Positions 22,318-22,505 of a stretch of 64,000 nucleotides of DNA are shown one piece after another. The stretch's first letter is position 1, and each line of letters starts with the position of its first letter. A program made the translations under genes and the position numbers. The notes beneath the pieces were generated by a model that saw only the letters and a list, made by a program, of their open reading frames with translations, was not told the origin of the DNA and made no database searches. Source of the stretch: Tabrizicola fusiformis (GTDB lineage: Bacteria > Pseudomonadota > Alphaproteobacteria > Rhodobacterales > Rhodobacteraceae); NCBI RefSeq assembly GCF_013328815.1, contig NZ_JABUHN010000003.1, positions 62,001 through 126,000 on the forward strand, in the 5' to 3' direction.

Positions 22318-22505
22318 CTGCCGTATCCCCCTCAGCAAGGCCGTCCATTCCTGTTAACATTTTGTAACATCTTTCTCCAGCCTGTTCATCCCGGTGGTCT
22401 GACACGTTCACATCCGCTGCCTAATCTTCCCTGTCAGGAAAGCATTCGTCTTTCCGCGAAAACGCGCAGGCCATTCGGCGATGCGGCACAACAGGGACCA
22501 AAAAC
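22318..22505. promoter_or_regulatory. torR-tmoX divergent regulatory region with Tor-box-like repeats
   Basis: The region contains four decamers resembling the E. coli tor box CTGTTCATAT, all in the same orientation: CTGTTAACAT (22351), TTTGTAACAT (22361), CTGTTCATCC (22382) and ACGTTCACAT (22404). Their starts are 10, 21 and 22 bp apart, that is about one or two helical turns. This placement fits TorR control of both torR and tmoX. Confidence 0.6.

Follow-up and report, generated by a model that had tools for sequence, protein, structure and literature searches.

TorTSR is known as the switch of TMAO respiration. The accessible part of PMC10845959 describes for Escherichia coli how TorT senses TMAO, TorS phosphorylates TorR, and phosphorylated TorR binds and activates torCAD, and it places the -10 site of the promoter within TTGCT(nnnn)AAGAT. 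Binding of tor boxes in vivo is attributed to the unphosphorylated form of TorR as well, in the part of PMC5294996 that is accessible. The torR-torC gap of E. coli K-12 has the decamers CTGTTCATAT, CTGTTCATAT, CCGTTCATCC and CTGTTCATAT at offsets 0, 10, 31 and 53, and its TAAGAT at +71 is consistent with the -10 placement given in the excerpt of PMC10845959. For Salmonella, the third box is described as weak and likely dependent on the fourth (PMC9239176, accessible text).

TMAO import is described separately. In Ruegeria pomeroyi DSS-3 tmoXWV is induced together with methylamine genes, and this resembles the locus presented here; the difference is that the methylamine pathway there uses TmaR and TmoR, with 0 occurrences of TorR in the accessible text of the paper (PMC13390433). 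For Paracoccus aminophilus methylotrophy, tmm and tdm are placed on pAMI6 and tmoXWV is named in a figure legend, and the term “two-component” is absent from the accessible part of the same paper (PMC4543880). Among the matches listed in searches of the open-access literature, judged by titles and the beginnings of abstracts, none links TorR to a TMAO importer, and tmoX and TorR are mentioned together only in a paper on methylotrophic yeast, each once. The tor operator type is already known from E. coli.

The torR-tmoX locus beside the E. coli torR-torC gap

The window, i.e., the whole stretch of 64,000 nt that was analysed, carries a torR-like gene divergent from a tmoXWV operon, with torS-like and torT-like genes alongside (Table 1). 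The torR-like product scores 255.8 bits against NCBIfam TorR (NF008034), the best of 98 matching models, and the torS-like product scores 612.8 bits against TIGR02956, its best model; because these values lie under the NCBI cut-offs of 275 and 676.5, the names TorR-like and TorS-like are used. The TorS sensor domain passes its Pfam cut-off. The torS-like gene converges on torR and its start is uncertain, as the TorS model begins at ORF residue 73. The torT-like gene is divergent from torS, and the gene at the same place is annotated as torT in three named loci. In L227-L229 the public annotation calls torT “TMAO reductase system”, although the adjoining operon is the importer tmoXWV. TmoX matches PDB 4xz6, which we take to be the Ruegeria pomeroyi TmoX, with 557 bits over residues 9-313, a level that we count as close homology. 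A tandem tmoX pair ahead of tmoWV is found at another locus (L037:5223-7461).

Table 1. Genes and site elements of the torR-tmoX region, in positions of the window
Feature	Position	Strand	Remarks
torT-like periplasmic binding protein	17605..18759	-	Peripla_BP_1/4 in ORF 17605-19089; start approximate
torS-like hybrid sensor kinase	18564..21632	+	TorS sensor domain, HisKA, HATPase, receiver, Hpt
torR-like response regulator	21613..22317	-	Receiver and Trans_reg_C; ATG at 22317, TTG at 22338 also possible
Box 1	22351..22360	+	CTGTTAACAT; 8/10 vs E. coli tor box
Box 2	22361..22370	+	TTTGTAACAT; 5/10 vs E. coli tor box, weakest
Box 3	22382..22391	+	CTGTTCATCC; 8/10 vs E. coli tor box
-35-like hexamer	22399..22404	+	CTGACA, putative role; 17 bp from -10-like hexamer
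Box 4	22404..22413	+	ACGTTCACAT; 7/10 vs E. coli tor box
-10-like hexamer	22422..22427	+	TAATCT of putative tmoX promoter; +71 from box 1
tmoX, TMAO importer substrate-binding protein	22506..23450	+	OpuAC domain
tmoW, ATPase	23487..24554	+	ABC_tran; nearest models proV and choline-type ATPase, under cut-offs
tmoV, double-length permease	24551..26476	+	Two BPD_transp_1 stretches

The gap of 188 bp between the torR ATG and tmoX contains all four decamers. A sequence-only reading had described them as lying in one orientation at 10-, 21- and 22-bp steps, and had equated the first eight bases of the third with those of the E. coli decamer CTGTTCATAT; the steps were recovered exactly as described, and comparison with the decamer confirmed the eight-base identity of box 3. 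Summed over the four boxes, 28/40 positions agree with CTGTTCATAT. The starts of box 4 and the -10-like hexamer are 18 bp apart, and box 4 falls in the spacer of the putative promoter, between the -35-like and -10-like hexamers. A consensus scan of positions 22250-22560 on either strand found no sigma-70 promoter or terminator.

The architecture is that of E. coli K-12 in several respects. The box offsets 0, 10, 31 and 53 are identical, a -10-like hexamer is found at +71 in both (TAAGAT in E. coli, TAATCT in the window), the fourth box is equally far from this hexamer, divergent torR and target genes flank the boxes, and torT and torS are mutually divergent. The two systems differ in target, which is torCAD (TMAO respiration) in E. 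coli and the importer operon tmoXWV in the window, so that a test for tor operators that takes torCAD as the target does not include the present site. They differ also in gene order, torS and torT having exchanged places with respect to torR, in the similarity of the boxes to CTGTTCATAT, which is closer in E. coli, and in the weak box, which is box 2 in the window and box 3 in E. coli by the accessible text of PMC9239176, written for Salmonella. The sequence CAGCCTGTTCATC, found around box 3 at window positions 22378-22390, is present in the same place in the torR-torCA locus L221 (near position 2227); since it is common to both, the bases that precede box 3 may belong to the site.

Given this architecture, the site between torR and tmoX very probably combines a promoter and a TorR-type operator in one, at which phosphorylated TorR would activate tmoXWV, and the best reading is that of an operator-promoter whose target has shifted from the respiration of TMAO to its import. 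Detection of extracellular TMAO, the presumed signal, would fall to the TorT-like and TorS-like proteins, and phosphate would pass to the TorR-like regulator, which would then bind the four boxes and turn tmoXWV on. Boxes 1 and 2 would form an upstream tandem site, with boxes 3 and 4 at the promoter. By analogy with E. coli, occupation of boxes 1 and 2 may also hold torR down, and autoregulation of torR through the boxes is plausible. The imported TMAO would be passed to a TMAO demethylase, the gene for which lies in another part of the genome.

In many promoters a box between the -35 and -10 elements means repression. TorR could thus bind the boxes and repress tmoXWV, with box 4 (22404-22413), inside the putative promoter spacer, blocking RNA polymerase between the two hexamers. 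This we regard as unlikely, given that E. coli torC, in which the fourth box is equally far from the -10-like hexamer, is activated by phosphorylated TorR (PMC10845959, accessible part).

Spacing at loci with and without an adjacent torR

Spacing was compared with a strict core, TT[ACT]A[CT][AG], and with a template consisting of the E. coli decamer at offsets 0, 10, 31 and 53 (maximum score 40). At 15 torR-tmoX loci, comprising 13 family loci together with L192 and L193 of other families, the only distances between strict cores that are common to at least three loci, up to 80 bp, are 10, 21, 22, 31, 43 and 53. The same six distances are common at 10 loci where torR lies beside a reductase-type operon (torA/torC), a set in which L094 is too short at that end for its reductase to be matched; the core-distance set of the family's torR-torA/torCDA loci equals that of the torR-tmoX loci. 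The reverse strands of those loci have no strict-core distance common to at least three loci. In the reductase-linked loci L089-L093 of the family four strict cores are in register, with a first gap of 10 or 11, and L094, L095 and L194 retain two strict cores each; L194 (torCDA) has a template score of 20. When 1,152 spacing combinations were compared across 16 family loci, a test that leaves out L192 and L193, the combination (10,21,22) gave the highest mean, 27.0, with the next at 25.9.

As controls, the 301 bp before the tmoX match were taken from 54 tmoX or tmoX-like genes without an adjacent torR; these are all such regions fetched, with one copy of a tandem pair included, and come from the closer match rows of the family search. 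None of the 54 has strict cores at a distance of 10, 11, 21, 22, 31 or 43, and two have them at 53. Two boxes in register occur in three controls (L028, L035 and L059), and three boxes in no control. It should be noted that the control template scores have a mean of 18.1 (sd 1.9) and reach 24 in L058, and that the template fails to set some of the true loci apart from the controls.

Half-sites of OmpR-family regulators resemble one another. The boxes might accordingly form a conserved operator of some other regulator, of the OmpR family or the Ruegeria TmaR/TmoR, with torR merely a neighbour, and in the accessible text of PMC13390433 trimethylamine catabolism of R. pomeroyi is indeed under TmaR and TmoR. 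The absence of the register from the 54 tmoX regions without an adjacent torR, and its presence beside torR at reductase loci, make this reading quite improbable; so does the finding that the tor promoter of E. coli was not bound by phosphorylated ArcA (PMC10845959, accessible part).

At several loci of other families the E. coli spacing is indistinct. L192 and L193 score 18 and 21, respectively. In L193 boxes can be discerned by eye at steps of 10, 21 and 21, and a TAGGGT lies 18 bp from the first base of box 4; in L192 box 4 is kept and box 3 is degenerate. Eight torR-torD loci of another family (L199-L206) score 20-26 and have no clear four-box site. A search for loci by TorR alignment (80 loci) was swamped by other response regulators; seven of the 80 upstream regions were inspected and revealed no clear four-box site, the best score being 27 in L106. 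In a phylum-wide search many of the regulators returned were of OmpR type, and the genes probed at their loci included none for TMAO. Of the loci from this search only L221 (torR-torCA) clearly has the E. coli architecture, with a score of 37; L216 (torR-torT) needs an 11-bp first gap to reach 28.

The template was also run over 3.17 million positions of the window and the loci, with all 80 TorR-alignment loci included as background; 31 rows had a score of at least 25, all just upstream of a torR homologue. By manual count these represent 17 distinct sites, of which four (L105, L106, L202 and L203) are not clear four-box sites. Most of the loci had been collected around torR, which enriches them for regions of this kind, and some of their sequence is shared; the scan is therefore a check of specificity and not a census.

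Conservation of the site and its rank in the window

The family search covered 394 genomes, with up to seven candidates scored per genome. TmoX at 60% identity or more gave 52 match rows (manual count), and TorR at 57% identity or more was found in 13 genomes, in all of which it adjoins tmoX. The intergenic regions of these 13 loci, the window and 12 relatives with divergent torR and tmoX, align across the module. Within the module (22351-22427) 22/77 columns are invariant and 33/77 are kept in at least 12 loci, in contrast to the leader (22428-22490), with 0/59 and 1/59. The stretch 22318-22350 has 0/15 columns in either class. At the torR start 11/40 columns are invariant and 14/40 kept in at least 12 loci, and at the ribosome site and tmoX start these values are 16/101 and 26/101.

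Conservation is concentrated in parts of each element. Box 1 is identical in all 13 loci at 22354-22359; in box 2 the A, C and A at 22367-22369 are kept in 13, 12 and 13 loci; box 3 has TTCA at 22385-22388 in all 13, and box 4 has T22408, A22410 and A22412 in all 13. In the -35-like hexamer, positions 22399, 22400, 22402 and 22403 are identical in 13/13 loci and 22401 in 10/13; in the -10-like hexamer the TA is found in 13/13 and the last T in 12/13. Template scores across the 13 loci range from 21 (L006) to 31, with 24 each in L005, L008 and L012. The strict-core count of L006 is 1, a value reached by 135/300 shuffles.

Once the template was fixed, three further torR-tmoX loci were fetched from named plasmids as a held-out test: Paracoccus yeei, P. 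aminophilus pAMI5 and Leisingera thetidis. A fourth, Gemmobacter fulvus, is excluded from the count as its coordinates are those of the source of L005. In each of the three, 12.7 kb long, the best template site is in the torR-tmoX gap, with scores of 30, 25 and 29 and next-best scores of 20, 22 and 22, and the sites carry CTGAC at +48 and TA...T at +71. The sequence evidence strongly favours the conserved TorR-type operator that the sequence-only reading had proposed ahead of the importer, more so than that reading had claimed: the geometry equals that of E. coli, the site is conserved in 12 relatives and in three named loci, and the four-box register is absent from the 54 fetched tmoX loci that lack an adjacent torR. 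Conservation in alignments of relatives' intergenic regions, which that reading had called for, stands within the family; in L192 and L193, of other families, scores are at the level of the controls.

Single tor-box-like decamers are unremarkable and a search for them is uninformative: the window has 45 decamer sites with at most two mismatches, compared to 16.7 expected from shuffles. Its sole perfect CTGTTCATAT, at 59688-59697 on the - strand, is isolated and inside an ORF. When the template was scored along each strand of the window, some 128,000 positions in all, position 22351 ranked first with 28/40; the runners-up score 22 (at 22341, the same site moved by 10) and then 21, and the background has a mean of 8.8 (sd 2.6). 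With the strict core, two of the four window boxes count, a result reached by 3/300 mononucleotide shuffles. The window-alone test is thus modest, and the E. coli-template test and conservation carry the weight. A second copy of the half made up of boxes 3 and 4 was sought in the window's genome, three mismatches being allowed, and only the torR-tmoX site was found; the tdm upstream region gave template scores of 16 and 17, equal to background, and neither strand of the torT-torS gap (18501-18900) has a strict core.

Chance repeats in a promoter stretch, for which the abundance of near-matching decamers and the 3/300 shuffles might speak, have a negligible probability in view of the 22/77 invariant module columns, against 0/59 in the leader, and of a spacing identical to that of E. 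coli.

Respiratory loci and the meaning of the operator

The family's torR-torA/torCDA loci, which are presumably DorR-type, differ from the torR-tmoX loci by having a reductase and not an importer as neighbour, and their TorRs are 48-53% identical to that of the window. A 33-row TorR tree unites all 13 tmoX-linked proteins of the family in a single clade (100/99), the sister group of which consists of five reductase-linked TorRs, also from this family. Both L192 and L193 are outside the tmoX-linked clade, L193 on a long branch; L091 places elsewhere and L092 was left out. The tmoX label requires three changes on the tree, at least two of which are forced by well-supported branches.

Gene content was compared in the same genomes. 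The window's genome (4.4 Mb, 59 contigs) encodes a 789-aa protein that matches the solved TMAO demethylase 9q59 with 1,269 bits. No full-length reductase was found in this genome, the best match to TIGR00509 (S/N-oxide reductase) being partial, with 104 bits. In six reductase-type genomes the best TIGR00509 matches have 830-1,227 bits, and only two pass the curated cut-off. Tdm is present in 12/13 tmoX-type genomes vs 2/6 genomes with only the reductase-type torR, and the reductase model at E 1e-100 matches in 4/13 tmoX-type vs 6/6 reductase-type genomes.

Two genomes display additional arrangements. G288 has two torR paralogues, L025 beside tmoX and L094 at a contig end, where it adjoins the first part of a torA-like gene. 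Since the second torR lies by this reductase-like gene start, the missing reductase of G288 may represent an assembly gap; cross-talk between the paralogues is possible. In G386 (L092 / L085) torR has one in-frame stop and torA is matched only piecewise, with the four-box spacing kept, which suggests a decaying respiratory locus.

TorTSR together with the four-box operator is likely to constitute a portable TMAO-sensing module, its spacing kept from enterobacteria to Rhodobacter-type bacteria and its target moved from respiration to import for demethylation; the import-type regulators are one clade, sister to the respiratory ones, in the family studied. The 10/21/22 geometry has stayed fixed while the box sequences have diverged, which points to a mechanical requirement for the seating of TorR at the promoter. 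The four-box template can be used to predict TorR targets in unstudied genomes. If the reading of the site as a TorR-activated operator-promoter is correct, some Rhodobacter-type bacteria would use a known sensor-operator pair to govern how TMAO enters catabolism, a form of control that differs from the TmaR/TmoR wiring described in Ruegeria.
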